In this document: positions 1,688 through 14,930 of the stretch, piece after piece
Layout: each line of letters begins with the position of its first letter
Numbering within the stretch: position 1 is the first letter of the stretch
From: an uncultured Oscillospiraceae bacterium
Lineage (GTDB): Bacteria > Bacillota > Clostridia > Oscillospirales > Oscillospiraceae
Length of the DNA stretch: 46,972 bases
Reading direction: 5' to 3'
NCBI GenBank assembly: GCA_947624065.1
Contig: CANQIO010000010.1
Location: forward strand, 1-46,972
Translations under genes and position numbers: made by a program
Notes under the pieces: model-generated
What the model was told of the DNA's origin: nothing
Seen by the model: only the letters and a program-made list of their open reading frames with translations
Databases searched by the model: none

Positions 1688-2947
1688 ATGGTTCGCCTAA
1701 TGATCGTTGCGGATGATTTCACCGGCGCACTGGACAGCGGCGTCAAGTTTGCCGCGCACGGTGCCAGGACTCTGGTGGTCGTCGGCATGCCGGCCACCTT
1801 CTCCCCCGACGCGGAGGTGCTGGTGGTGGACGCCGAGACGCGCCACCTGGCCCCGGAGCGGGCCTATGAGATCATCGGGACGCTGACCGCCGGCGCCATC
1901 GCCGCCGGTATCCCCTACATATATAAAAAGACCGATTCCGCCCTGCGGGGCAACGTGGGCGCGGAACTGACGGCGCTTCTGAAGGCCAGCGGCGCCCGGC
2001 AGCTCCCCTTCCTGCCTGCCTTTCCGCAGGTGGGACGCACCACCGTCGACGGCATCCACCGCAGCAATGGCACGCCGGTGGCCGAGAGCGTGTTCGGCCG
2101 CGATCCCTTCGAGCCGGTGCGCCACTCCTCCGTGACGGAGCTCATCGGCGAGCAGAGCGACGTGCCGGCCCACAGCTTTCCGGCTCTGGGTCCCCGCGAC
2201 CAGGTCCCCGATCAGGAGGGCATCCTGGTATTCGACGGCGAGCGGGCGGAGGACCTGGTATCCACCGGAGAGCGGCTGCTGGCCGCGGGCATGCTCCGGG
2301 TGGCGGCTGGATGCGCCGGCTTTGCCGCGGTGCTGCCCCGGCTGCTGGGCTTCGGCACCGCCGGCGCGGCGGAGGGGCCCGCTCTGGACCCCCGCATGCT
2401 GGTGGTCTGCGGCAGCGTGAACCCCATCACCGCCGCGCAGATCCGTTACGCCGAGGCGCACGGCTTCCAGCGCATCCAGCCCACCCCCCAACAGAAGCTG
2501 GAACCTGACTATTGGGACACGCCGGACGGCGCCCAGGCCATGGACGACATCCGCCGCCAGCTGCGCCAGAGCCCCCGGCTCATCATCGACACCAACGAGC
2601 CCGACGGCAACAGCCTGACCGCCGGATATGCCGCCTCCCTTGGCCTGACCACCCAGGACGTGCGGGTGCGGGTGGCCAAGAGCTTCGGCCGGATCGTGGG
2701 AGAGCTGTTCACCGATCCCGCCCTGGGTACGCTGTTCATCACCGGCGGCGACACGCTCCTGCAGTGCATGCAGGCCATGGGCGTCAGCCAGATGGAGCCA
2801 GTGTGCGAGCTGGACTCCGGCGTGGTGCTGTCCCGGTTCACCTACCGCCGGTGCACCCGGTACGTGATCTCCAAGTCCGGCGGCTTTGGCGGCGAGGACC
2901 TGCTGGTCGGACTGGCCGGCCGGCTCGGCTCCCAGCAGACCAACTGA
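1688..2947 (+). CDS. Four-carbon acid sugar kinase family protein (DUF1537)
   Basis: ATP-dependent kinase of the DUF1537 family, whose characterised members phosphorylate D-threonate, D- or L-erythronate and related four-carbon acid sugars in the cytoplasm. The N-terminal domain opens with VADDFTGALDSG (residues 8-19) and has the KKTDSALRG substrate motif at 80-88. The C-terminal nucleotide domain has ITGGDT near 350 and SKSGGFG near 395. At 419 aa it is normal length for the family. ATG 1688 is chosen over ATG 1673 because GGGAG at 1675-1679 sits 8 nt before it. It is the first gene of the operon, and the PdxA-like dehydrogenase four genes on is the usual partner that oxidises the phosphorylated product. 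Exact substrate unknown. Confidence 0.9.
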   Translation: MVRLMIVADDFTGALDSGVKFAAHGARTLVVVGMPATFSPDAEVLVVDAETRHLAPERAYEIIGTLTAGAIAAGIPYIYKKTDSALRGNVGAELTALLKASGARQLPFLPAFPQVGRTTVDGIHRSNGTPVAESVFGRDPFEPVRHSSVTELIGEQSDVPAHSFPALGPRDQVPDQEGILVFDGERAEDLVSTGERLLAAGMLRVAAGCAGFAAVLPRLLGFGTAGAAEGPALDPRMLVVCGSVNPITAAQIRYAEAHGFQRIQPTPQQKLEPDYWDTPDGAQAMDDIRRQLRQSPRLIIDTNEPDGNSLTAGYAASLGLTTQDVRVRVAKSFGRIVGELFTDPALGTLFITGGDTLLQCMQAMGVSQMEPVCELDSGVVLSRFTYRRCTRYVISKSGGFGGEDLLVGLAGRLGSQQTN

Positions 2948-2988
2948 GACGAAAAAATAATTAATTATATTATATGGAGGTAACCGCA

Positions 2989-4149
2989 ATGACTTATCCC
3001 ACGCTCCCCGGCCTGACTTACGACGGCCAGCTGTACCGCAACGAGGAAATGGGCACCGTGGAGGCCGTCATCCCTCCCGGGATCCACCCCACCTGCCACT
3101 CTCCCGCCACCCTGGAGCTGCCCAACGGCGACCTGCTGTGCTGCTGGTTCGCCGGCACCTATGAGGGCAGCGCCGACGTGCACATCGTCTGCGCCCGTCT
3201 GCCCAAGGGCGAGACCAAGTGGAGCGAGCCGGTGGACATCTCCGGCGATCCCACCCGCAGCGAGCAGAACCCCTCCCTGTTCTACGGCCCGGACGGCGCC
3301 GTGTGGGCCATGTACACCGCCCAGAAGGACCGGGAGGCCGGCAAGGACAATATGCAGTTCACCTCCCAGGTCCGCGTGCAGAAGAGCTTCGACGGCGGCC
3401 TGACCTGGGGCCCCTATGAGACCATGTTCCCCCGGGAGGGCACCTTCTGCCGCCAGGCCATCCAGGTGCTGTCCAACGGCCGGTGGATCTTCGGCAACTG
3501 GATCTGCACCGACTCTGTGGACGGCCTGTCCGGCGACCCCACCGCCTTCCAGATCTCCGACGACCAGGGCAAGACCTGGCGCCAGGTGGATATGCCCAAG
3601 TCCAACGGCCGCGTGCACGCCAACGTGGTGGAGCTGGAGAACGGCCATCTGGTGGCCTTCATGCGGGACCGCGAGGCGGCCAACATCTACCGCAGCGAGT
3701 CCTTTGACTGGGGCGACTCCTGGACCGAGCCCAAGCCCACTCCCCTGCCCAACAACAACTCCTCCATCAGCGCCATCAAGCTCCAGAGCGGCCGCATCGC
3801 CATCGCTCACAACCCCACCTGCACCCCCGAGCCCACCCCCGGCAAGGCCGCTTGGCCCGGACTGCGCTGCCCGGTGGCAGTGGCCCTCAGCGAGGACGGC
3901 GGTCTGACCTTCCCCATGATCCGCTGGATGGAGCGGGGCGAGGGCTTCGTCGGCGACGAGAACAAGACCAACAACAAGCAGTATGAGTATCCCCACATCA
4001 TGCAGAGCGCCGACGGCCGCATCCACCTGACCTACGCCGCCTTCACCCGCAAGGCCATCAAGTACGTCAGCTTCACCGAAGAGGACGTGATGGGCGCCAA
4101 GCGCGAGCGCGTGGGCCTGTACAACCCCACCGCCGCCCAGAGCCGCTGA
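2989..4149 (+). CDS. BNR/Asp-box sialidase-like protein (cytoplasmic)
   Basis: A 386-residue beta-propeller of the BNR_2 (sialidase superfamily) type. Four Asp-boxes are visible: SFDGGLTW 133-140, SDDQGKTW 190-197, SFDWGDSW 238-245 and SEDGGLTF 301-308. There is no signal peptide, so it acts inside the cell on an imported substrate. The position of the N-terminal sialidase Arg-Ile-Pro motif reads HSPATLEL (37-44), so the usual first arginine of the carboxylate-binding triad appears to be missing. The call is therefore the fold rather than sialidase activity; a glycoside hydrolase, lyase or isomerase is equally possible. GGAGG at 2976-2980 selects ATG 2989. It lies 41 nt after the kinase in the same operon. 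Confidence 0.75.
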   Translation: MTYPTLPGLTYDGQLYRNEEMGTVEAVIPPGIHPTCHSPATLELPNGDLLCCWFAGTYEGSADVHIVCARLPKGETKWSEPVDISGDPTRSEQNPSLFYGPDGAVWAMYTAQKDREAGKDNMQFTSQVRVQKSFDGGLTWGPYETMFPREGTFCRQAIQVLSNGRWIFGNWICTDSVDGLSGDPTAFQISDDQGKTWRQVDMPKSNGRVHANVVELENGHLVAFMRDREAANIYRSESFDWGDSWTEPKPTPLPNNNSSISAIKLQSGRIAIAHNPTCTPEPTPGKAAWPGLRCPVAVALSEDGGLTFPMIRWMERGEGFVGDENKTNNKQYEYPHIMQSADGRIHLTYAAFTRKAIKYVSFTEEDVMGAKRERVGLYNPTAAQSR

Positions 4150-4174
4150 GAATCTTTCCTAGGAGGACATCCCC

Positions 4175-5335
4175 ATGCTTACTTCCTATAATCTGAAAAC
4201 GCCCCACGCCATCTACGGCGGGGAAAATGCCATGGCAAACATCACCACCATCCTCCAGACCAAGAAGGTCAAGCGGGTGGCCATGTTCACCGATAAGGTC
4301 ATCGAGAGCACCGGCCTGTTCGCCCTGCCCGAGGAGGCCGTGAAGGCCGCCGGCGCGGACTATTACGTGCTGGACGATCTGCCCCCCGAGCCGGCTTACA
4401 CCGCCGTGCAGAAGGTGGTCGACCAGTTCAAGCAGAGCGGCGCGGACATGATCGTGGCCTGCGGCGGCGGCAGCGTGCTGGACGCGGCCAAGCTGGCCAG
4501 CGTGCTGGTCACCGACGAGTACGGCGTCAAGGAGCTGCTGGACGATCCCGGCCGGGCCCAGAAGTGCGTGCCCATCATCCTGATCCCCACCACCGCCGGC
4601 ACCGGCGCCGAGGTCACCCCCAACGCCATCGTGGCCGTGCCCGAGCGTGAGCTGAAGGTGGGCATCGTCAACGAGAACATGATCGCCGACTACGTGATCC
4701 TGGACGCCCGGATGATCAAGAACCTGCCCCGGAAGGTGGCCGCCGCCACCGGCGTGGACGCGCTGGCCCACTGCATCGAGTGCTTCACCAGCAACAAGGC
4801 CAACCCCTTCAGCGACCTGTACGCCCTGGAGGGCCTGGATCTGATCCTCAACAACATCATGGACGCCGTCAACGACACCGAGGCCATGGAGGCCAAGAAC
4901 CGCATGCAGATCGCGGCCTATTACGGCGGCCTGGCCATCACCGCCTCCGGCACCACCGCCGTGCACGCGCTGAGCTATCCTCTGGGCGGCAAGTACCACA
5001 TCGCCCACGGCGTGTCCAACGCCATCCTGCTGGCCCCAGTGATGCGCTTCAACGAGCCGGTCTGCCGGGAGAAGTTCGCCCAGGTCTATGACCGCTGCGT
5101 CCACGGGGAAAAGACCTGCCATACCGTGGAGGAGAAGAGCGCCTACATCATCGCCTGGCTGGAGAAGATCGTCAGGGAGCTGGACATCCCCACCAGCCTC
5201 AAGGAGTTCAACGTCCCCGAGGAGGATCTGGAGAGCCTGGTGGCCTCCGGCATGGAGGTGACCCGGCTGCTGGTCAACAACATGCGCGAGGTGACCGCCG
5301 ACGACGCCCGGGCCATCTATCGCGAGATCATGTGA
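4175..5335 (+). CDS. Iron-containing alcohol dehydrogenase family protein
   Basis: NAD(P)-dependent, metal-dependent alcohol dehydrogenase of the Fe-ADH group, 386 aa. The nucleotide-binding GGGSVLDAAK is at 97-106 and TTAGTGAEVTP at 139-149. Predicted metal ligands are all present: D195 and H199 in GVDALAHCIE, H264 in HALSYPLG, and H278 in HIAHGV. AGGAGG at 4161-4166 precedes the ATG by 8 nt. Within the operon it could oxidise the sugar acid alcohol or reduce the aldehyde left by the neighbouring aldolase. Family members act on very different alcohols, so the substrate is not assigned. Confidence 0.9.
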   Translation: MLTSYNLKTPHAIYGGENAMANITTILQTKKVKRVAMFTDKVIESTGLFALPEEAVKAAGADYYVLDDLPPEPAYTAVQKVVDQFKQSGADMIVACGGGSVLDAAKLASVLVTDEYGVKELLDDPGRAQKCVPIILIPTTAGTGAEVTPNAIVAVPERELKVGIVNENMIADYVILDARMIKNLPRKVAAATGVDALAHCIECFTSNKANPFSDLYALEGLDLILNNIMDAVNDTEAMEAKNRMQIAAYYGGLAITASGTTAVHALSYPLGGKYHIAHGVSNAILLAPVMRFNEPVCREKFAQVYDRCVHGEKTCHTVEEKSAYIIAWLEKIVRELDIPTSLKEFNVPEEDLESLVASGMEVTRLLVNNMREVTADDARAIYREIM

Positions 5336-5378
5336 ACCCGAGCCTTTCTCACAACTTTTCTGAAAAGAGGTACAGGCT

Positions 5379-6290
5379 ATGAAGAACTTAGAGATCAAGG
5401 GCATCATCCCGCCGATCGTCACCCCCATGGACCCGGTGGATGAGTCCGTCAATATCCCCGAGCTGCGCAACCAGGTGGAGCGGCAGATCGCCGCCGGCGT
5501 GCACGGCATCTTCCCCTTCGGCACCAACGGCGAGGCCTATATCCTCAGCATGGAGGAGAAGGAGCAGATCCTGGAGGCCACCGTGGACCAGGTCAAGGGC
5601 CGCATCCCCGTCTACGCGGGCACCGGCTGCATCTCCACCCGGGACACTGTGTATCTGAGCAAGCGGGCCCAGCAGCTGGGCGCCGACGCGCTGAGCATCA
5701 TCACCCCCAGCTTCGCCGCCGCCAGCCAGAAGGAGCTGTATGACCACTATGTGGAGGTGGCCAAGCATGTGGACATCCCCATCATCCTCTACAACATCCC
5801 CGCCCGCACCGGCAACAAGCTGCTGCCCGAGACGGTGGCAAAGCTGGCCAAGGACGTGGACGTGATCGTGGGCGCCAAGGACTCCAGCGGCGATCTGGAC
5901 AACCTGATGGCCTATATCCAGGTGACCCGTGACATCGGCAAGGACTTCGCCGTCCTGGCCGGCAACGACGGCAACATCCTCAAGTGCCTGAAGGCCGGCG
6001 GCGCCGGCGGCGTGGCGGGCCGAGCCAACCTGTGGCCCAAGACCATCGCCTCCATCTACGACCACTTCGTGGCCGGCGAGCTGGAGGAGGCGGAGAAGGC
6101 CCAAGAGTCCATCACCCCCTTGGGGCGGGTGTTCAAGTTCGGCAACCCCAACACCATCATCAAGAAGGGCACCGCCCTGCTGGGCTATCCTGTGGGCGAC
6201 TGCCGCAAGCCCTTCAACTATCTGTGCGACGAGGGCATGGAGGAGCTGAAGAAGGTCCTGGCTGAGGCGAAGGCCGCCGGCGTTTGCTGA
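5379..6290 (+). CDS. DapA/NanA-family aldolase (dihydrodipicolinate synthase family)
   Basis: A 303-aa TIM-barrel class I aldolase. The Schiff-base lysine is K167 in GAKDSSGD. The catalytic tyrosine is Y138 in YNIPARTG, and the pyruvate carboxylate loop is GTNGE at 48-52. The family includes DapA, N-acetylneuraminate lyase and 2-keto-3-deoxy-sugar-acid aldolases. This copy sits in a sugar-acid operon away from lysine genes, so a lyase or aldolase giving pyruvate plus an aldehyde is more likely than lysine synthesis. It starts 43 nt after the Fe-ADH with GAGG upstream. The GTNGE loop differs from the GTTGE of DapA. Confidence 0.87.
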   Translation: MKNLEIKGIIPPIVTPMDPVDESVNIPELRNQVERQIAAGVHGIFPFGTNGEAYILSMEEKEQILEATVDQVKGRIPVYAGTGCISTRDTVYLSKRAQQLGADALSIITPSFAAASQKELYDHYVEVAKHVDIPIILYNIPARTGNKLLPETVAKLAKDVDVIVGAKDSSGDLDNLMAYIQVTRDIGKDFAVLAGNDGNILKCLKAGGAGGVAGRANLWPKTIASIYDHFVAGELEEAEKAQESITPLGRVFKFGNPNTIIKKGTALLGYPVGDCRKPFNYLCDEGMEELKKVLAEAKAAGVC

Positions 6291-6317
6291 GAGCGGCATT
6301 CAGGAGGTTTTTACACA

Positions 6318-7400
6318 ATGGCAGACAAACCCATTCTTGGCGTCACCATGGGCGACCCCTTCGGCAACGGCCCGGAGATCTCCGTTCAGGCGTTGGCGGA
6401 CCCGGCGGTCTATGACCGCTGCCGGCCCCTGATCGTGGGCGACGCCAGCTCCATGGAGTACGCCGCCAAGGCCGCCAAGGCGGTCCACGGCATCGACGTG
6501 GCCATCCATCCCATCCACGCAGTGAGCGAGGCCAGCTTCCAGCCCGGCACCATCGACGTGCTGGACCTGGGCCTGGTCAAGCCCGAGGACATCCCCGGCG
6601 ACCCCGCCGCGCCCAAGCCCTTCAAGCTGGGCGCCACCGCTCTGGGCGGCGAGGCGGCCTTCCAGTATGTGAAGAAGGTCATCGAGCTGGCCATGGCGGG
6701 CGAGGTGGACGCCACCGTCACCAACGCTTTGAGCAAGGAAGCCATCAACATGGCCGGGCACCACTTCTCCGGCCACACCGAGATCTACGCCCACTACACC
6801 GGTACCGACAAGTACACCATGATGCTGGCCCACGAGGAGCTGCGGGTGGTGCATGTATCCACCCACGTGTCCCTGCGGGAGGCCTGCGACCGGGTGAAGA
6901 AGCAGCGGGTGCTGGACGTGATCCGCATCGCCAACGAGGGCTGCAAGGCCATCGGCATCGCCCAGCCCAAGATCGCCGTGGCGGGTCTGAACCCCCACTG
7001 CGGGGAGAACGGCATGTTCGGCCGGGAGGAGATCGAGGAGATCCAGCCCGCCATCGACCAGGCCATGGCCGAGGGCATCCTCATCCCCGACGGCAAGCCC
7101 ACGCCCCCCGACTCCGTGTTCTCCAAGGCGCTGGGCGGCTGGTATGACATCGTGGTGTGCATGTATCACGACCAGGGCCACATCCCCCTGAAGGTGAAGG
7201 GCTTCGTGTACAACAAGGCCGAGGGCCACTGGGACGCGGTGGCCGGCGTCAACGTGACGCTGGGCCTGCCCATCATCCGGGCCAGCGTGGACCACGGCAC
7301 CGGCTTCGGCCACGCCGGCAGCGGCACCGCCAACGCCCTGAGTCTGGTCAACGCCATGGACTACGGCATCCGCATGGCCAACGCCAAGAGCAAGAACTGA
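6318..7400 (+). CDS. PdxA-family 4-phospho-acid dehydrogenase (PdxA2-like)
   Basis: A 360-aa NAD- and metal-dependent dehydrogenase of the PdxA family. The three metal histidines of PdxA are conserved: H183 in STHVSL, H227 in NPHCGENG and H284 in MYHDQG. The GHTE motif is at 152-155. The SVDHGTGFGHAG segment near the C-terminus is also conserved. PdxA in B6 synthesis oxidises 4-phosphohydroxy-L-threonine; PdxA2 paralogues next to DUF1537 kinases oxidise and decarboxylate phosphorylated threonate or erythronate to dihydroxyacetone phosphate. The kinase in this operon favours the second role. AGGAGG is present at 6302-6307. Confidence 0.88.
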   Translation: MADKPILGVTMGDPFGNGPEISVQALADPAVYDRCRPLIVGDASSMEYAAKAAKAVHGIDVAIHPIHAVSEASFQPGTIDVLDLGLVKPEDIPGDPAAPKPFKLGATALGGEAAFQYVKKVIELAMAGEVDATVTNALSKEAINMAGHHFSGHTEIYAHYTGTDKYTMMLAHEELRVVHVSTHVSLREACDRVKKQRVLDVIRIANEGCKAIGIAQPKIAVAGLNPHCGENGMFGREEIEEIQPAIDQAMAEGILIPDGKPTPPDSVFSKALGGWYDIVVCMYHDQGHIPLKVKGFVYNKAEGHWDAVAGVNVTLGLPIIRASVDHGTGFGHAGSGTANALSLVNAMDYGIRMANAKSKN

Positions 7401-7417
7401 GACACTTTGATCCTGAC

Positions 7418-7453
7418 CCGCGGGCGGAACGGCCTTCCGTCCCCCGCCCGCGG
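7418..7453 (+). other. Intercistronic hairpin between pdxA-like gene and esterase
   Basis: CCGCGGGCGG (7418-7427) pairs perfectly with CCGCCCGCGG (7444-7453). ACGG/CCGT (7429-7432/7437-7440) forms an inner stem. No T-run follows, so it is more likely an RNA-processing or stability element than a terminator. Confidence 0.6.
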
Positions 7454-7489
7454 ATCATCCCATCCCACCGGCGGAGAGGAGGCGGCAGC

Positions 7490-9121
7490 GTGCAAGCGCC
7501 AGTTTCCGAAAAGCACCCCTTTTACTGCTACATATCGACGCGGGCCTGCTATGACCCGGCGCGGACCATCTATGTGTGCGCCCCGGACCGGGACGCCGCC
7601 GACATGGCGTCGCTGGAGCGCTTCGCCGCTTCCTCCGGCTGGCGGGACATCGCCGAGGCGGACGGCGCGGTGCTGGTCCTGCCCCTGGCCAAAAACGGCT
7701 GGGGCAGCGAGAGCGTTGCGCTGCTGCCGGAGCTGTACGCCGAGACCCAGGGAAAGTTCCCCGTCCCCCAGGGAGAGGGGCTCTACGGCCGGGGCGGAAA
7801 GCTCTGGTGCTGGGAGACGCTGATCTGCCTGGCGGGCTACGGCGAGGGCGCGGTCTATGCCGGAAACGCTCTGGCCGCCGCCCCCGGACGGTTCACCGCC
7901 GCGGCGCTGGTGGGCGGCGCGCCGGAGGACTTCTCCGCCGCCGACGCCCCCTCCGCCCATTTCATGACCGCCGGCGTCAGCGCCGGCTATGACAAAAAGA
8001 ACCGTGATGTCCCCGTCCGCCTGTGGATGTTCCTGGACCGCCCGGAACAGGGCCAGGCCGCGGCCCGGTACTTTTCCGGCGCGGAGCGGCCGGCCGGGAC
8101 AGGATGCTTCGACGGCGTTCCCGCCGCGCTTTACGGCGACCGGGTCCGCCTGTCCACTGGGACCTTCGGTCCCGAGCCGGCGCTGTCCTCCCTCATCTAC
8201 CGGGAACTGTTCGCAAAGACCATCCGCTGGAAATGCGGCCCCGACGGGGCGCTGGCAGACTTGGCAGGCCGGGAGGAGCTGATCCGCTCCGGCCGGTTCG
8301 CCCGGCACACGGTCCGCTCCGGCGGGCGCGAATATGACATCCTCGTCCACGTCCCCAGGGGACGGGAAGGCCAGCGGGGTCTGCCCCTTCTCATCAGCCT
8401 CCACGGCCGGGGCGAGCCCGCCTGGATGTTCTGCCAGAAAAACGGCTGGGAAGAGCTGGCCGACGAGACGGGAGCGTTCCTTCTGGCCGTGCCCGACTCG
8501 CCGGAGAACATCTGGTTTTTGGACCGGGACGGCGGCGCCCTCGGCGCCATGGTGGAGCTGCTGGCGGCGGGATACGGCGTCGACCGGGAGCGGGTATACC
8601 TGACCGGCTTTTCCAACGGGGCCATGATGACCCGTCAGGCCGGGACCCGGTACGCCTCCCTCTTCGCGGGCCTCTCAGCCTGGAACGGGCCGTCCAGCGA
8701 GGCGCTGCCCGGCGCCGACGGCTGGCAGGAGGATCTGGCCCGGCTGGAAGAAGAAGGCTGGCAGATGCCCTATTTCGCCTATGCCGGGGATCGTGACGGC
8801 GTCGCGCCGCCCGACCGGGAGGAGCTGCTGGAGCGGATGCTGCGGCTGAACGGCTGCGCAGACCGGCAAAGCCCGGACGCGGTCTGGACCGACAAAGACC
8901 GGTACGCCCCCGACCGGGGCTACCGCCAGGGAGAGCGCATGACCAGCCAGGTCTGGCTGGATGCCGCGGGCACGCCCCGGGTGGCCATGACCGTGATGCG
9001 CGACATGCCCCACGGCGCCATCCCGGACGAGAGCCGCTCCGCATGGGAGCTGCTGCGGCGGTACCGCCGCCCGGCGGGAAGCCGCGAGATCGCGGTGATA
9101 CCTCAGGACAAAAACGCGTAG
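7490..9121 (+). CDS. Tandem alpha/beta hydrolase, PHB-depolymerase-like esterase domain at C-terminus
   Basis: A 543-aa cytoplasmic protein with two hydrolase-like halves. The C-terminal half (about 280-525) resembles PHB depolymerase/LpqC-type esterases: core strand LLISLHGRG (300-308), nucleophile elbow GFSNG with S375, acid candidate in YAGDRDG (D434/D436), histidine H508 in MPHGA. The N-terminal half (about 15-240) also looks like a hydrolase fold, but its elbow reads GYGEG at 116-120, with Gly where the serine should be, so it is probably inactive. GTG 7490 is used because GAGAGGAGG ends a few bases upstream and no earlier in-frame codon has a binding site. Likely removes acyl or lactone ester groups from the imported substrate; the substrate is unknown. 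Confidence 0.75.
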   Translation: MQAPVSEKHPFYCYISTRACYDPARTIYVCAPDRDAADMASLERFAASSGWRDIAEADGAVLVLPLAKNGWGSESVALLPELYAETQGKFPVPQGEGLYGRGGKLWCWETLICLAGYGEGAVYAGNALAAAPGRFTAAALVGGAPEDFSAADAPSAHFMTAGVSAGYDKKNRDVPVRLWMFLDRPEQGQAAARYFSGAERPAGTGCFDGVPAALYGDRVRLSTGTFGPEPALSSLIYRELFAKTIRWKCGPDGALADLAGREELIRSGRFARHTVRSGGREYDILVHVPRGREGQRGLPLLISLHGRGEPAWMFCQKNGWEELADETGAFLLAVPDSPENIWFLDRDGGALGAMVELLAAGYGVDRERVYLTGFSNGAMMTRQAGTRYASLFAGLSAWNGPSSEALPGADGWQEDLARLEEEGWQMPYFAYAGDRDGVAPPDREELLERMLRLNGCADRQSPDAVWTDKDRYAPDRGYRQGERMTSQVWLDAAGTPRVAMTVMRDMPHGAIPDESRSAWELLRRYRRPAGSREIAVIPQDKNA

Positions 9122-9145
9122 GCTGTATAGCCGAAGGAGGCGCCT

Positions 9146-10126
9146 ATGTACATTCCCCCCAAGGTGAAGCCCCTGTGCCCGCCGGAGAAGCCGCCCCGGT
9201 TCGAGGACGTGCCCTATGCCCAAGTGACGCTGGACGACGGCTCGCCTTATACCCTGCGGCTGGACATCTATCAGGACCCGGCCCAGAGCCGGCCCGGCCC
9301 CTGCATCGTGTACTTTTTCGGCGGCGGCTGGATGTGGGGCGAGTATAAGCAAAAGACTCAGAAAGCCGTCTACTGCCGGGACCTGGTACGTCTGACCGAC
9401 CAGGGCTTCACCGTGGTGTGCCCCGACTACCGGCTGGCAAGCCAGGCCATCTTCCCCGCCTGCATCCACGACTGCAAGGGCGTGATCCGGTTTCTGAAGG
9501 CCAACGCCGCCCGGTTCAACATCGACCCGGAGCGGATCGGCGTGCTGGGCAACTCCGCCGGCGGCCACCTGGCCGCCATGGTGGCCATGAGCGCCGGCCA
9601 TCCCGAGATCGAGGGCGACGTGGGCGGCAACCTGGACCAGTCCAGCGCGGTGAAGGCGGCGTGTCTTTTCTACTGCCCGGCGGACCTGGAGCAGGCGCTG
9701 CTGACCAACGCCGCCCAGAGCCAGGCCAAAGACCTGACCGGCACGGAGATCGAGAACGTGGGCAACGACAAGGCGGACATCATTCCCGCCCTGATCGTAG
9801 GCTACACGGGCCCCGGCCGGACCATCCAAAAGCTGGCCCAGGTGGCCCAGCGGGGCGACCGGTCCGATCCGGACTGGCCCTTCATCGAGCTGACCCGGCT
9901 TTGCAGCCCTGTCACCTACGCCAGCGCTGACTGTCCTCCCATCGCCATCTTCCACGGCGGGCGCGACCCCATCGTGGACATCCAGCAGAGCGAGATCCTG
10001 TACCGCGCCCTGGTGGCGGCGGGGGCGGACGCCACCTATCTCTCTTATTCCTACGGCGGCCACGGCCCCTCCCTGGGACCGGAGCTGGACCAGTTCGCCT
10101 ACCGTTTTCTGACGGAGCGGCTGTAA
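9146..10126 (+). CDS. Alpha/beta hydrolase, acetyl-esterase (Aes/HSL) type
   Basis: A 326-aa serine esterase of the hormone-sensitive-lipase/Aes group. The nucleophile is S137 in GNSAGG. The acid lies in HGGRDPIV and the histidine in YGGHGP near the C-terminus. The family oxyanion HGGG motif appears as FFGGGW (57-62), with Phe in place of His. No signal peptide. AAGGAGG lies just before the ATG, 24 nt after the tandem hydrolase. Two different esterases in one operon suggest an acylated, possibly O-acetylated, sugar-acid substrate (inference). Confidence 0.85.
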   Translation: MYIPPKVKPLCPPEKPPRFEDVPYAQVTLDDGSPYTLRLDIYQDPAQSRPGPCIVYFFGGGWMWGEYKQKTQKAVYCRDLVRLTDQGFTVVCPDYRLASQAIFPACIHDCKGVIRFLKANAARFNIDPERIGVLGNSAGGHLAAMVAMSAGHPEIEGDVGGNLDQSSAVKAACLFYCPADLEQALLTNAAQSQAKDLTGTEIENVGNDKADIIPALIVGYTGPGRTIQKLAQVAQRGDRSDPDWPFIELTRLCSPVTYASADCPPIAIFHGGRDPIVDIQQSEILYRALVAAGADATYLSYSYGGHGPSLGPELDQFAYRFLTERL

Positions 10127-10147
10127 AAAAGACCCCATGTGGATCGT

Positions 10148-10173
10148 CGTCCGCCCCTGTGGCAGGGCGGACG
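10148..10173 (+). other. Intercistronic hairpin before the permease gene
   Basis: CGTCCGCCC (10148-10156) pairs perfectly with GGGCGGACG (10165-10173) around an 8-nt loop, without a T-run. It lies in the 111-nt gap between the esterase and the permease and resembles the other unpunctuated hairpins of this operon. Confidence 0.55.
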
Positions 10174-10237
10174 CGCAGATAAACAAACCGATCCAGCAAA
10201 CCCAAACCACTTATTTCAAGGAAGGAAGGAACAACAA

Positions 10238-11512
10238 ATGACTACCCCAATGATCATCGCACTGGGCATCACGATCCTGATGATCGTGATGATCATGTCC
10301 GACAAATTCGCCTTTGGCGCGCCTCCCCTGATCTGCTGCGTGCTGCTGGTGCTCTTTGGCATCTCCACGGTCCAGGAGGCCTTCGCCGGCTTCGTGAACA
10401 ACAGCGTGGTCATGATCGCCGGCTTTATGGGCATCATGGCGGCCCTGCAAAAGACCAGCCTCATCACCAAGGTCAAGCAGGTGATGCTGAACCTGGCCAT
10501 GAAGGGCGGCTATAAGAGCTACGTACTGCTGGTCGTCATCGCCATGCTGGCCGGCTCCGTGTTCGGCGCCGGCGCCACCGCCTGCTACGTGCTGGTGCTG
10601 AGCCTGGTGTCCACCATCCCCTACAACAAGCAGCTGCCTCCCTCCAAGCTGATGATGCCCATGGGCTTCGCCACCAACCAGCCCCTGGTCCCCATCAACG
10701 TGGCCCTGCATCTGGGCATCACCGTCCAGGTGCTGGAGACCGCCGGCTGGGACATGGGCGCCGGCATCCCCACCATCCAGTTCTCCCTGGTGAACGTGAT
10801 CATGAACGTGGCGTTCCTGGCCTGGTGCCTGATCGGCTTCAAGCTGCTGCCCGACCATGAGATCGCCGCCGCCGAGGCCTCCAACAACACCGCTGAGGCC
10901 GAGAAGCTGCCCAAGTGGCAGGAGAACCTGATCTACGTCTGCTTCGTGGTCGGCGTTCTGGGCATGGTGTTCCAGAGCAAGATCGGCAACGCCGGTTATG
11001 TGATCCCCGCCCTGTGCGTGGCCGTGCTGGTGACCTGCCGCGTGCTCACCTTCGGCGAGGCCATGCACAACATCGGCGCCCCCGTGGTGCTGATGATGGC
11101 CGGCGTCGTGGGCGTGGCCGACGCCCTTGCCGGCACCGGCTTCACCGCCATGATCGGCGAGAAGATGGCCGTTCTGCTGGCCAACGTGAGCCCCTTCATC
11201 ATCGTGCTGGCCTTCTCCCTGCTGGCCTCCACCCTGGCCACCTTCACCGGCTCCAACCTGGGCACCGCGATGGTGTTCGCGCCCATCGCCGTGGCGGCCT
11301 GCATGGCTCTGGGCTACAACCCCACCGCCGCTGCCACCGCGGTCGTCATCTCCTCCTGGAACGGCGGCTATATGCCCGTCGACGGCATGCCTGCCATGAT
11401 CATGGGCATGGGCAACTACAAGCTCACCGAGTTCTGGAAGTTCTCCGTTCCCATGTACTTCGTACGTATCATCTTCTTGAGCCTGGGCGCCGTGCTCGTG
11501 TTCCCGCTCTAA
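10238..11512 (+). CDS. Ion-transporter superfamily permease (SLC13/CitM-like)
   Basis: A 424-aa integral membrane protein with about ten to twelve hydrophobic segments in two similar halves, as in SLC13, CitM and related carboxylate or ion carriers. A hydrophilic loop near 215-230 (EASNNTAEAEKLPKW) splits the halves. GSNLGTAMVFAP near 345 and SSWNGGYMPVDGMPA near 375 sit in re-entrant-like regions. ATG 10238 follows AAGGAAGGA at 10222-10230; an upstream in-frame start would run through the hairpin. It may import the substrate or export a product. It duplicates the function of the TRAP system at the start of the island, so the two may carry different compounds. Confidence 0.7.
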   Translation: MTTPMIIALGITILMIVMIMSDKFAFGAPPLICCVLLVLFGISTVQEAFAGFVNNSVVMIAGFMGIMAALQKTSLITKVKQVMLNLAMKGGYKSYVLLVVIAMLAGSVFGAGATACYVLVLSLVSTIPYNKQLPPSKLMMPMGFATNQPLVPINVALHLGITVQVLETAGWDMGAGIPTIQFSLVNVIMNVAFLAWCLIGFKLLPDHEIAAAEASNNTAEAEKLPKWQENLIYVCFVVGVLGMVFQSKIGNAGYVIPALCVAVLVTCRVLTFGEAMHNIGAPVVLMMAGVVGVADALAGTGFTAMIGEKMAVLLANVSPFIIVLAFSLLASTLATFTGSNLGTAMVFAPIAVAACMALGYNPTAAATAVVISSWNGGYMPVDGMPAMIMGMGNYKLTEFWKFSVPMYFVRIIFLSLGAVLVFPL

Positions 11513-11543
11513 GCGGCGGTTGCTAAGAAAAGGAGAATGTGGT

Positions 11544-11990
11544 ATGATCGTTGAGTCACTGGAAAAGCTGGGGCTATACGCGCCGCACATTCCCCATCTG
11601 GCCGATGGGCTGGCCTGCCTGGCCGCCCATCGGGACGACCCCGCGCCTGCCCGCTATGAATTCAGCGGCGGCTATATGATGCTCCAGGAGGGCACCACCC
11701 GCCCTGTGGACGATGGCGACTATGAGGCCCACCGGGCCTATCTGGACGTGCAGGTGGTCCTGGGCGGCGGCGAGACCGTCATCTGGGCCGACATCGACGC
11801 GCTGACCCCGACCGGGTCCTATGACGCCGCCAAGGACAAGATCATGCTGGCGGGCGCCGGCGTCCCGGTCCGGATCGATCCGGGCATGTGCTATGTCTGC
11901 TGGCCCCACGACGCCCACAAGGCGTGCCGCTGCCTGACCGAGCCCGGTCCCTTCCGGAAGGCGGTCATCAAGCTGGCAATCGAGAAATAA
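11544..11990 (+). CDS. YhcH/YjgK/YiaL family protein (NanQ-like anomerase)
   Basis: A 148-aa single-domain cupin-like protein of the DUF386 family. Characterised members speed up sugar anomerisation, including NanQ for N-acetylneuraminate. The family-typical AHRAYLDVQVVLGG segment lies near residues 62-75, and the metal-site histidines include those in WPHDAHKAC near the C-terminus. AGGAG at 11531-11535 fixes ATG 11544, which is 31 nt after the permease. Its presence says the operon substrate passes through a cyclic sugar with an anomeric centre, in line with a nonulosonate-like or aldonate-linked compound. Confidence 0.87.
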   Translation: MIVESLEKLGLYAPHIPHLADGLACLAAHRDDPAPARYEFSGGYMMLQEGTTRPVDDGDYEAHRAYLDVQVVLGGGETVIWADIDALTPTGSYDAAKDKIMLAGAGVPVRIDPGMCYVCWPHDAHKACRCLTEPGPFRKAVIKLAIEK

Positions 11991-12010
11991 TCGCAAGGGA
12001 GTCGAACATC

Positions 12011-12976
12011 ATGCTCGTACCTGTATTACTGTTTATCGTGGGTCTGCTGTGCCTGATCAAGGGCGGCGACTGGTTCGTGGACGGCGCGGTGGGCATCGCC
12101 CGCCGGTTCCACCTGCCAGAGCTGCTCATCGGCGCCACAGTGGTCTCCATCGGCACTACCCTGCCGGAGGTCATGGTGTCCACCACCTCCGCCCTGAAGG
12201 GCATCGGCTCCATCGCCTACGGCAACGCCATCGGCTCCGTCATCTGCAACACCTCGCTCATCGCCGCCATCACCATCGCCGTGCGGCCCGGCCCGGTGGA
12301 TAAGAAGGCGCTGAAGACCCCCGTGCTGTTCTTCTTCACCGCGGCGGTGATCTACGCCGTCGTGGCCTACACCACCGGTAACTTCACCCGTCCCATCGGC
12401 CTCATCATGATGGCGATGTTCATCGTGTACATGGTCGTCACCGTGCGGCAGATGAAGGGCGCCCCCCAGCCGGAAGGCGAGGACGCTGAGGAGCAGGAGG
12501 ACATGCCGCTGAGCAAGAGCATCATCCTGCTGGTACTGGGCGCGGCGGTGATCGCCGTGGGCGCCGACCTGCTGGTGGACAACGGCACTCTCATCGCCCG
12601 CGCTCTGGGCGTGCCCGAGACCGTCATCGCTCTGACCTTCGTGGCCTTGGGCACCTCCCTGCCCGAGCTGGTCACCGCCATCACCTCTCTGGCCAAGGGC
12701 CACGGCGCCCTGAGCCTGGGCAACGTGATCGGCGCGAACCTGTTCAACCTGGTGCTGGTCAGCGGCGTGGCCGTGACGCTGGCGCCGTTCCCCATCCCCG
12801 AGGCGGCCACCATCGCGGGCCACAACGCCTCCCTGGTGATGGATCTGCCCGTGATGTTCGCGGTCATGCTGCTGCTGACTGTGCCGGCCCTCCTGAAGGG
12901 CAAGCTCAGCCGTCTGCAGGGCATCGTGCTGCTGGCCATCTACGCGGCGTTCTGCGTCATCCAGTTCACCCTGTAA
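12011..12976 (+). CDS. Calcium/sodium antiporter family protein (CaCA)
   Basis: A 321-aa cation exchanger with two inverted alpha-repeats. The first has GTTLPEVMVST and GNAIGSVICN, the second GTSLPELVTAI and GNVIGANLFN. The acidic residues of both repeats (Glu in LPE) are present. About ten membrane segments, with an acidic loop (EGEDAEEQED) in the middle. AAGGGAG at 11995-12001 precedes the ATG. The exchanger is unusual inside a sugar-acid operon. It may dispose of calcium or sodium that enters with a TRAP- or SLC13-carried substrate, but this is inference. Confidence 0.87.
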   Translation: MLVPVLLFIVGLLCLIKGGDWFVDGAVGIARRFHLPELLIGATVVSIGTTLPEVMVSTTSALKGIGSIAYGNAIGSVICNTSLIAAITIAVRPGPVDKKALKTPVLFFFTAAVIYAVVAYTTGNFTRPIGLIMMAMFIVYMVVTVRQMKGAPQPEGEDAEEQEDMPLSKSIILLVLGAAVIAVGADLLVDNGTLIARALGVPETVIALTFVALGTSLPELVTAITSLAKGHGALSLGNVIGANLFNLVLVSGVAVTLAPFPIPEAATIAGHNASLVMDLPVMFAVMLLLTVPALLKGKLSRLQGIVLLAIYAAFCVIQFTL

Positions 12977-12997
12977 GCAAACACGAAAACCTGATCC

Positions 12998-13031
12998 CTG
13001 CCGGAGCCGACTGCTTGGTCTGCTCCGGCAG
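12998..13031 (+). other. Hairpin before the regulator gene
   Basis: CTGCCGGAGC (12998-13007) pairs perfectly with GCTCCGGCAG (13022-13031) around a 14-nt loop. No T-run follows. It could be an operator, a weak terminator or an RNA-stability element between the exchanger and the regulator. Confidence 0.5.
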
Positions 13032-13067
13032 CCGGTATAGAGGACCCATCGCAAAGGAGGAAGGCCA

Positions 13068-14855
13068 ATGCCCCGTTCCGATATCAACATCCTGGCCGTC
13101 GCCCCGTATGAGAGCATGAAAGCCGCCATGGAGAGGGTGGCGGAGGCCTATCCCGAGATCCGTCTGGAGGTGTATACCGGAGACCTGGAGGAGGGCGTGG
13201 AGGCGGTCCGCAGCGCCGGACCGGACAACTTCGACTGCATCATCTCCCGGGGCGGCACCGCCCAGCTCATCCGCCGGATCACCGACGTGCCGGTGGTGGA
13301 GATCCCACTGTCGGTCTATGACGTGTTGCGCGCCATCAAGCTGGCGGAGAACTACACCGACCTGTACGCCATCGTGGGCTTCCCCAACATCACCGGAACG
13401 GCCCACATCCTGTGCGACCTGCTGCGGTCCAACGTGGACATCCTCACCGTCCACGACGCCCGGGAGGTCGCCTCTACCCTGTCCCGCCTGGTCCAGGGCG
13501 GCTACCGGATGGTGGTCTGCGACATGGCCACCCACACCGCCGCCCGGCAGATGGGGCTGGACGCCTTCCTCATCACCTCCGGGGAGGAGAGCCTGCGCGA
13601 GGCCCTGGAACAGGCTCTGACGGTGAGCGCCGGCTTCCGCCGGCTGCGGGAGGAGAACCTCTTTCTGCGCGGCGCCCTCCAGGAGACGGAAAAGACCGTC
13701 GTGCTGGACGGGCAGGGCGCGCTCTATTTCTCCGCCCCCACCGAGCCCGCCGCCGAGGCTCTGAAGGTGCTGCGCCAGCGGCTGCCCGCCCTGCAGGAGG
13801 GCTCCGCCCAGCGGTTTTACCACAATGAACAGGGCACGCTTTACGGCGTCTCCGCCCAGGCCGTCACCATCGGCCAGCGGAAATATTACCAGTTCCGCTA
13901 TGTGGAGGAAAAGATCCCTCTCCGGTCCGGACGCAACGGCATCCGCTCTTATAACAAGAGCGAGTGCATCCATCTGCTCCAGGGCGGGATCTACGGTCTG
14001 CGGGGCCTTTTGGGCGAGCAGGAAGCGGCCGTGGATACGGCTGCGGCCACCCGACAGCCGGTGATGATCATCGGCGAGCCCGGCACCGGCAAGGACCAGC
14101 TGGCCCGCATCCTCTATCTGCGCGGCCCTCTGCGGGACAAGCCCTTCGTGGTGCTGGACTGCGCCGCCATGAACGACAAGAGCTGGAACTTCCTGCTGGA
14201 CCACTACAGCTCCCCCCTGAACGGCTCCGGAAACACTATCAGCTTCCGCCACATGGAGGCCCTCTCTGACGCCCGGTGGCGGGAGCTGCTGGCCGCCATA
14301 TGGGAGACGGGCCTGGCCAGACGGGTCCGGCTGCTGTTCGCCATCACCTGCCCGGAGGGGCGGGCCCTGCCGCCCCAGTGCCACGAGCTGGTGTCCTCCC
14401 TGGGCTGCATCACCTTCCGGCTGCCAGCCCTGCGGGACCGGTCCGACGAGATCACCTCCCTGGCCAGCCTGTATCTGGCCAGCCTGAACCTGGAGACGGG
14501 CAAGCAGATCTCCGGTTTCGACGACCGGGCCATGGAGCGGCTGCGCTCCTACCGCTGGCCGCAGAATTACGCCCAGCTGGACCGGGTGCTGCGGGACCTG
14601 GTCCTGCACACCACCGGCCAGTACATCCATGGCGCCGCGGTGGCCGATGCCCTGCAGAGAGAGCGGGGCCTGCTGGAGAACACCGCCCCGGCGGCTCTGG
14701 CCGTTGAGGGCCGGACCCTGGAGCAGATCACCACTGACGCGATCCTGCAGGCCATCGCCGCCCACGGCGGCAACCGGACCGCCGCGGCGCGTCAGCTGGG
14801 CATCAGCCGCTCCACCCTGTGGCGGTATCTGGCCAGGACGGAGGACATGAAATAG
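13068..14855 (+). CDS. PrpR-N type regulator with degenerate sigma-54 AAA+ domain and Fis HTH
   Basis: A 595-aa regulator. Residues 1-190 form a PrpR_N ligand-sensing domain (SRGGTAQLIR at 60-69). About 205-285 looks PAS-like. About 320-515 is a remnant NtrC-type AAA+ domain, and 565-590 is a Fis-type HTH (GGNRTAAARQLGISRSTLW). Walker A (GEPGTGK, 336-342) is intact. The GAFTGA loop that contacts sigma-54 is absent, and the Walker B region reads TISFRHME (390-397) without the LDE aspartate. It probably does not activate sigma-54 RNA polymerase and may act as a classical repressor or activator. AAGGAGG precedes the ATG. As last gene of the island it likely senses the substrate or an intermediate. 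Confidence 0.82.
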   Translation: MPRSDINILAVAPYESMKAAMERVAEAYPEIRLEVYTGDLEEGVEAVRSAGPDNFDCIISRGGTAQLIRRITDVPVVEIPLSVYDVLRAIKLAENYTDLYAIVGFPNITGTAHILCDLLRSNVDILTVHDAREVASTLSRLVQGGYRMVVCDMATHTAARQMGLDAFLITSGEESLREALEQALTVSAGFRRLREENLFLRGALQETEKTVVLDGQGALYFSAPTEPAAEALKVLRQRLPALQEGSAQRFYHNEQGTLYGVSAQAVTIGQRKYYQFRYVEEKIPLRSGRNGIRSYNKSECIHLLQGGIYGLRGLLGEQEAAVDTAAATRQPVMIIGEPGTGKDQLARILYLRGPLRDKPFVVLDCAAMNDKSWNFLLDHYSSPLNGSGNTISFRHMEALSDARWRELLAAIWETGLARRVRLLFAITCPEGRALPPQCHELVSSLGCITFRLPALRDRSDEITSLASLYLASLNLETGKQISGFDDRAMERLRSYRWPQNYAQLDRVLRDLVLHTTGQYIHGAAVADALQRERGLLENTAPAALAVEGRTLEQITTDAILQAIAAHGGNRTAAARQLGISRSTLWRYLARTEDMK

Positions 14856-14896: not shown

Positions 14897-14930
14897 AAAG
14901 TCCGTACTCTTTGAAAAGAGTACGGACTTT
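14897..14930. terminator. Bidirectional terminator, 16-bp perfect stem
   Basis: AAAGTCCGTACTCTTT (14897-14912) and AAAGAGTACGGACTTT (14915-14930) are perfect reverse complements. It separates the + strand island from the convergent ABC cluster and has T-rich tails in both directions. Confidence 0.9.

Follow-up and report, generated by a model that had tools for sequence, protein, structure and literature searches.

The window, by which we mean the whole stretch of 46,972 nucleotides that was analysed, is the complete contig CANQIO010000010.1 of an uncultured Oscillospiraceae bacterium (assembly GCA_947624065.1, a genome that is 75% complete) and starts inside a dctM gene. Positions 1688–14855 carry a cluster of genes that all lie on the + strand with intergenic gaps of about 20 to 111 bases, and our subject is the catabolic route that this cluster may encode, for which the sugar diacid Dha is the proposed substrate. 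The gene families were assigned by Pfam and NCBIfam profile matches and follow each other as listed here, in agreement with a preliminary description made from the sequence alone, all the genes it had named being present, in order and closely spaced.

2–1339, + strand: TRAP large permease DctM, its 5' end cut by the contig start (PF06808, 8.2e-91)
1688–2947, + strand: DUF1537 kinase, proposed D-threonate 4-kinase (PF07005, 2.2e-44; PF17042)
2974–4149, + strand: sialidase-fold BNR protein, proposed intracellular enzyme acting on Dha or a Dha glycoside (PF13088, 2e-55)
4175–5335, + strand: iron-containing alcohol dehydrogenase (Fe-ADH), proposed reductase of a C4 aldehyde-acid to D-threonate (PF00465/PF25137)
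5379–6290, + strand: DapA/NanA-family lyase, proposed Dha aldolase (PF00701, 8.6e-74)
6318–7400, + strand: PdxA2-type protein, proposed D-threonate-4-phosphate dehydrogenase, decarboxylating (PF04166, 2.4e-95)
7490–9121, + strand: esterase like polyhydroxybutyrate (PHB) depolymerases, accessory, GTG start likely (PF10503 just over the cut-off; NF050058, 5.6e-34, below the cut-off)
9146–10126, + strand: BD-FAE/HSL-type esterase, accessory (PF20434, 4.6e-53)
10238–11512, + strand: SLC13/CitMHS-type permease, proposed importer of the substrate (PF03600, 1.7e-22)
11544–11990, + strand: YhcH/YjgK/YiaL protein, proposed anomerase (PF04074, 3e-24)
12011–12976, + strand: Na+/Ca2+ exchanger, proposed to expel the Ca2+ that enters together with the diacid (PF01699, 2.2e-62)
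13068–14855, + strand: regulator of the PrpR_N/sigma-54-activator type (PF06506, PF25601, HTH_8)
14897–14930, no strand assigned (listed on the - strand): 15-pair hairpin immediately after the regulator, a possible end of transcription by consensus match only

The likely starts are 1688 for the kinase, whose open reading frame (ORF) opens at 1673, 7490 for the PHB-type esterase, 10238 for the permease, 11544 for YhcH and 12011 for the exchanger. DctM is separated from the kinase by about 350 bp and may or may not belong to the operon. The TRAP receptor that had been described as encoded upstream has no gene in the window. Hairpin-type sites numbered 4, against 6.7 in shuffled sequence.

Conservation and spread of the gene set

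The neighbourhood survey was a pattern scan that started from four aligned BNR proteins and covered 84,980 species genomes; it reaches only BNR relatives matching two short peptide patterns and gave 211 confirmed ones. The counts below refer to the best 80 of the 211, or to the 50 loci in which the BNR match is flanked on either side by 5 kb or more, and a gene was scored as present wherever it lay in the locus, as far as 10 kb off; alignments A2 and A3 hold 41 and 25 sequences respectively. The kinase, Fe-ADH, lyase and PdxA genes are all present in 48 of the 50 well-flanked loci, the exceptions being L079 and L080, and the grouping of these four with BNR is more than chance. Loss of synteny was among the outcomes that the preliminary description had named as speaking against its pathway, and synteny held, also in other classes and in a second phylum. 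Over the 80 loci Fe-ADH occurs in 71 and a PrpR-like gene in 61, and the gene order differs among loci. In locus L080 (Succinivibrio; 6838–7998 and upstream) TRAP, YhcH and BNR genes are found, with the core enzymes not nearby, and the three could be a separate module for uptake and processing.

The variable gene order would agree with two parallel branches, in which the kinase and PdxA2 act on free D-threonate or D-erythronate and the lyase and Fe-ADH on an unrelated 2-keto-3-deoxy acid from another part of the compound, and a stand-alone D-threonate pathway with kinase and PdxA2, reportedly described by Zhang in 2016, lends some weight to such an arrangement. It is rather unlikely to be the case here, given that the four genes stay together in nearly all well-flanked loci and in records of other classes, and that a linear, redox-neutral scheme employs all four.

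Relatives seldom carry the set: among 295 genomes of the order 4 gave a BNR match at E 1e-30, and among 391 of the class 2 did so at E 1e-100, each count including the source genome. Such sparseness fits an accessory, mobile pathway. A congener (L083) has lyase, Fe-ADH, PdxA, permease and exchanger 92–95% identical to those of the window, with the BNR protein at 70% and the kinase at 40%, and the window BNR protein has its nearest relative, at 93% identity, in Oscillibacter sp. 1-3; the operon is therefore a mosaic with parts exchanged.

Outside the Clostridia, a tblastn search of plasmids with the BNR protein gave 314 records (mostly Rhizobium 128, Sinorhizobium 78, Pantoea 27, Agrobacterium 17), and the gene is present in 1043 of 5426 complete Escherichia coli genomes; 9 of the plasmid records and 2 of the E. 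coli genomes were inspected. The five-enzyme set occurs together in Rhizobium etli pC, R. ruizarguesonis, Agrobacterium fabrum C58 pAt, a Klebsiella record, Enterococcus raffinosus and Subdoligranulum. In Sinorhizobium meliloti 2011 the BNR match on pSymB is located amid the other four genes, all five being found by tblastn and profile. PMC12904279 places two four-carbon acid sugar kinase genes of pSymB among those tied to shifts in strain fitness on Medicago mutants. Two Pantoea plasmids (L098, L105) carry PdxA2, Fe-ADH, lyase, a sodium:solute symporter, BNR, YhcH and a short-chain dehydrogenase, and no DUF1537 kinase was seen in the stretch. E. coli Nissle 1917 (L138, 2886–11865) has a complete cluster between glnS and nagE, in the order DeoR regulator, D-threonate-4-phosphate dehydrogenase, dtnK, Fe-ADH, DapA-family gene, TerC protein, "sialidase family protein", YhcH and SLC13 permease, and these genes keep their order in a second E. 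coli strain, where the annotation marks dtnK as frameshifted. Between the window and Nissle 1917 the identity is 62% for the permease and 41% for both BNR and lyase.

Signatures of the lyase, the kinase and PdxA

The window lyase passes the dihydrodipicolinate synthase (DHDPS) model TIGR00674 with 218.9 against 206.15, and fails the NanA equivalogs TIGR00683 (133.4 against 382) and NF003164 (142.3 against 281). A DHDPS-type arginine (Arg143), which in DHDPS we take to hold the carboxylate of the aldehyde substrate, is found in 70 of the 72 lyase rows and in 7 of 9 other records, and the two exceptions among the rows may be second copies, about 30% identical, in L063 and L077. Asn50 and Phe112 are each conserved in 71 of the 72 rows, and the DHDPS pair Thr45 and Tyr107 (E. 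coli numbers), presumably the catalytic residues, was not found. As controls served 29 other PF00701 sequences from the genome and its relatives, of which 22 have the DHDPS pattern TTYYYRTK, five a NanA-like pattern with Leu at the Arg position, and one a pattern unlike both, while Asn, Phe and Arg occur together in a single control (L131), which is the congener's copy of the cluster. By keeping this Arg the lyase supports a diacid as the probable substrate. DHDPS converts a C4 aldehyde-acid to a C7 2-keto-4-hydroxy diacid, so that the cleavage of Dha would closely resemble the DHDPS reaction reversed. Lysine biosynthesis was considered as the role of the lyase and rejected, as a separate DHDPS-type gene lies on another contig of the genome (C45) and the other genes of the cluster would be left unexplained.

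The same data bear on a variant pathway for sialic acid (Neu5Ac/Kdn) or Kdo. The sialidase fold of the BNR protein, the NanA family of the lyase and the weak N-acetylneuraminate anomerase score of the window YhcH (55.2 against 160) would all suit it; the lyase falls far below the NanA cut-off, its Arg stands where the NanA-like controls have Leu, and products of the mannose type, or arabinose, give the kinase and PdxA2 no role. Further, a Pfam scan of cluster ORFs gave no match to a family of the nanE/nanK type, which bears out the earlier remark that sialic-type markers occur here without these two genes. We regard such a variant as very unlikely.

The kinase and PdxA were scored with the D-threonate kinase model NF047819 (cut-off 450 bits) and the dehydrogenase model NF002891 (cut-off 583 bits). 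The best NCBIfam match of the window kinase is the D-threonate kinase model, at 184.1 bits and below the cut-off. Two of the six kinases scored, the window included, pass it, namely those of Klebsiella (505.7) and Nissle 1917 (533.4), and below it are Enterococcus (220), R. ruizarguesonis (137) and Agrobacterium, where nothing was found at E 1e-30. The window PdxA likewise stays below NF002891 with 295.7 bits; four of eight dehydrogenases, again including the window, pass (Klebsiella 665.1, Pantoea 657.8 and 667.2, Nissle 1917 681.6), and those of Enterococcus (354), R. ruizarguesonis (309) and Agrobacterium (304) stay below it too. PdxA2 acts on D-threonate 4-phosphate, and the closest solved relatives of the window PdxA (4jqp, 2hi1, 6e85) include a D-threonate 4-phosphate dehydrogenase. 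The DUF1537 family includes a D-threonate kinase according to PMC10971088. For the enterobacterial version D-threonate is well supported by these scores as the putative intermediate, and for the window it is extrapolated from the identity of the gene set.

The window PdxA also passes the vitamin B6 model TIGR00557 (302.8 against 290.35), a model passed as well by sequences that score as D-threonate dehydrogenases. A locus for vitamin B6, or for repair of a toxic intermediate, built on DUF1537 and PdxA, would draw on this score; in the same sense, PMC10971088 states that a DUF1537 kinase can phosphorylate 4-hydroxythreonine, and PMC12928451 ties the corresponding E. coli pair, in region GR 6, to pyridoxal-5'-phosphate synthesis. 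It is hardly credible for the cluster, as the lyase, Fe-ADH, BNR protein, importer and regulator would remain unexplained and the solved relatives of PdxA point elsewhere.

A C7 mono-acid such as 3-deoxy-D-arabino-heptulosonate would be split to pyruvate and D-erythrose, with oxidation to D-erythronate and conversion by the kinase and PdxA2 to dihydroxyacetone phosphate (DHAP). The low D-threonate score of the window kinase would be compatible with this, and D-erythronate kinases are also among the DUF1537 members named in PMC10971088. The route requires an oxidation of aldehyde to acid, which is atypical of Fe-ADH enzymes, it would leave the conserved carboxylate-type Arg of the lyase idle, and in E. 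coli and Klebsiella the enzymes are assigned to D-threonate by their scores, so that we hold it to be clearly unlikely.

A candidate route from Dha to dihydroxyacetone phosphate

With D-threonate as the intermediate and the enzymes placed in line, the lyase would be expected to act on a C7 2-keto-3-deoxy diacid (2-keto-3-deoxy-heptarate). The known natural compound of this kind is 3-deoxy-D-lyxo-hept-2-ulosaric acid (Dha), and Dha of the pectin rhamnogalacturonan II (RG-II), or a small compound containing it, is the substrate that we favour with some confidence. By a Fischer derivation made by hand, the D-lyxo configuration at C4–C6 (left, left, right) would after the cut leave C5 left and C6 right, which is D-threo and leads to D-threonate. 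Sugar hexarates were also considered, and rejected since they yield a C3 product for which PdxA2 is unneeded. A review describes Kdo and Dha as structurally related to sialic acid, with Dha among plants occurring only in RG-II (PMC12168206).

The route would then have six steps, of which the first four, like the substrate, are inferred. The SLC13/CitMHS-type permease would import the diacid, perhaps as a Ca2+ complex, with the exchanger expelling the metal (1); the BNR protein and YhcH, or elsewhere the VOC-like protein, would deliver the free, ring-opened acid (2); the DapA/NanA-type lyase would cleave Dha to pyruvate and a C4 aldehyde-acid (3); and Fe-ADH would reduce the latter, 4-oxo-2,3-dihydroxybutanoate, to D-threonate (4). 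The DUF1537 kinase could then form D-threonate 4-phosphate (5) and PdxA2 oxidize it with loss of CO2 to DHAP (6), and one NADH would be used and one made. The preliminary description had proposed breakdown of an acylated acidic sugar, with a NanA/DapA-type lyase ahead of the DUF1537 kinase/PdxA pair. The lyase ahead of the pair is supported, and the acidic sugar stands and is narrowed to a C7 diacid, as the product of the lyase must become a C4 acid. PHB-type esterases occur in only 4 of the 80 loci and the BD-FAE type in 1, besides one plasmid record (L100), and since the esterases are thus accessory the acylation is unsupported; the earlier interpretation was partly right.

The BNR step is the least certain of the pathway. 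No signal peptide was seen by eye, and the AlphaFold model (pLDDT 88) has the sialidase beta-propeller fold, with GH33 sialidases as the top Foldseek matches (best E 1.6e-18, query TM 0.69–0.71). In a profile alignment to NanC, the conserved GH33 Glu, which we take to activate the Tyr nucleophile, is aligned with His215, found in all 84 rows and in each of the 9 other records. With His in place of this Glu, the protein is unlikely to work by ordinary sialidase chemistry. His42, present in 83 of 84 rows, the remaining one having a gap, and likewise in all 9 other records, was read by eye at the position of the GH33 "RIP" Arg, the first of the carboxylate triad, a placement that a sequence search with the first half of the protein neither confirmed nor refuted. 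The modelled fold together with YhcH would suit an ulosonic acid, and cleavage by the BNR protein is a guess.

Of the 80 loci, 9 have YhcH and 50 a VOC-like protein some 115 residues long, with a single locus holding both (p = 0.009, kinship ignored). YhcH lies between permease and exchanger in the window, where L042–L044 have the VOC gene, and the VOC-like protein (L042, 16324–16671, and at the same place in many loci) matches no family above cut-off; since the two are nearly exclusive and share one place, they perhaps do the same job. The SLC13/CitMHS permease occurs in 43 of 80 loci and DctM in 22, never together in the survey and both in the window, while other loci have importers of the TRAP, Na+:solute symporter or ABC type. 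A Na/Ca exchanger or P-type Ca-ATPase, the latter typed from one member with SERCA and PMR1 models best and both under cut-off, occurs in 18 of 80 loci, of which 17 also have the permease and none has DctM (Fisher p = 0.0007 for permease with Ca exporter, 50 loci, kinship ignored), and the TerC protein of E. coli and a Ca-ATPase-like gene of Enterococcus are in comparable company. Both associations are strong with kinship ignored, but on a quick BNR tree of 80 rows there are four independent pairs for permease and Ca exporter and two for YhcH and VOC, too few for significance. A precedent for import with a metal is given by CitMHS carriers, which transport metal-citrate complexes.

Several observations weigh against the Dha route. 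The kinase and PdxA of the window, and those scored from Agrobacterium, Rhizobium and Enterococcus, are all under the D-threonate cut-offs. In the divergent lyases of R. etli and R. ruizarguesonis Val takes the place of the Arg, which the lyase of one set without BNR (L091) lacks as well. L079 and L080 hold BNR and TRAP genes with the core set not nearby, and four related sets of kinase, Fe-ADH, PdxA and lyase (L089–L092) have no BNR gene in the stretch; their neighbours are a 2-hydroxyacid dehydrogenase, a phosphotriesterase-like lactonase, an amidohydrolase or a NadB-like flavoprotein, so that the core may serve several precursors. SLC13 and TRAP carriers usually move small acids, not glycosides, and glycoside hydrolysis by the BNR protein is doubtful as the sialidase Glu is absent. 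No CAZyme (carbohydrate-active enzyme) for RG-II was recognised near the loci, no dedicated CAZyme scan being made. Clustering of 220 nearby ORFs of at least 230 residues, taken up to three genes away, gave 162 groups, and beyond transporter parts, cation ATPases and short-chain dehydrogenases no recurring family was conspicuous; the ORFs were judged by size and start sequence, and five survey-locus proteins were scanned against Pfam and NCBIfam. Finally, pectin is not the sole source of Dha, because scales of some green algae also contain it (PMC10762512).

Relation to known systems

Taken as a whole, the proposal would be that the BNR protein founds a cytoplasmic sialidase-fold family with an altered active site acting on Dha, that the lyase runs DHDPS chemistry in reverse on an oxygenated analogue, that uptake as a Ca2+ complex goes with dedicated metal exporters, and that this is the intracellular fate of Dha, among the rarest of plant sugars, in at least four bacterial classes and, by the BNR gene, about one fifth of the complete E. 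coli genomes; we advance this only tentatively. RG-II is part of dietary plant cell walls, and if the proposal is true, gut and rhizosphere bacteria would have substrates for genes that now go by the names "sialidase", "dihydrodipicolinate synthase", "alcohol dehydrogenase" and SLC13 permease, and the metabolic region to which the BNR gene of the 1043 E. coli genomes belongs would be explained. The proposal specifies the enzymes and intermediates that would take part, and E. coli Nissle 1917 offers a tractable organism.

The gene set is on record already. PMC12928451 (2026) lists eight of the nine Nissle cluster genes (TerC is not among them) ORF by ORF as region GR 6 of pathogenic E. coli, names the BNR protein as COG4692 and notes the parallel in S. 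meliloti; there the kinase and PdxA2 are assigned to pyridoxal phosphate synthesis, and the part seen gives no substrate or pathway. A catabolic pathway for Dha, or its onward fate after release, was not found in the open-access literature searched, by which absence in print is not shown, and as far as could be seen the proposed substrate and route are new.

Degradation of RG-II has reportedly been described by Ndeh in 2017 for Bacteroides thetaiotaomicron, with Dha released from the same polymer, but by glycosidases outside the cytoplasm. Sialic acid (nan) catabolism shares with the cluster the sialidase fold, a NanA-family lyase, the YhcH anomerase family and importers of acids, and differs in having nanE and nanK, neither of which was matched here, and in the lyase motif and the BNR active site. 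D-threonate catabolism by DtnK and PdxA2 has the same last two steps, a kinase followed by a decarboxylating dehydrogenase leading to DHAP, and the relatives in E. coli and Klebsiella score as both of its enzymes and those of Pantoea as the dehydrogenase; here, however, the lyase, Fe-ADH and BNR protein would precede them, and D-threonate would be an intermediate and not the nutrient. The galactarate/glucarate pathway, with lyase, tartronate semialdehyde reductase and glycerate kinase, follows the same logic one carbon shorter, in that a 2-keto-3-deoxy diacid is split and the aldehyde-acid is reduced and phosphorylated, whereas the cluster uses other enzyme families and its C4 product would need PdxA2 for the loss of CO2.

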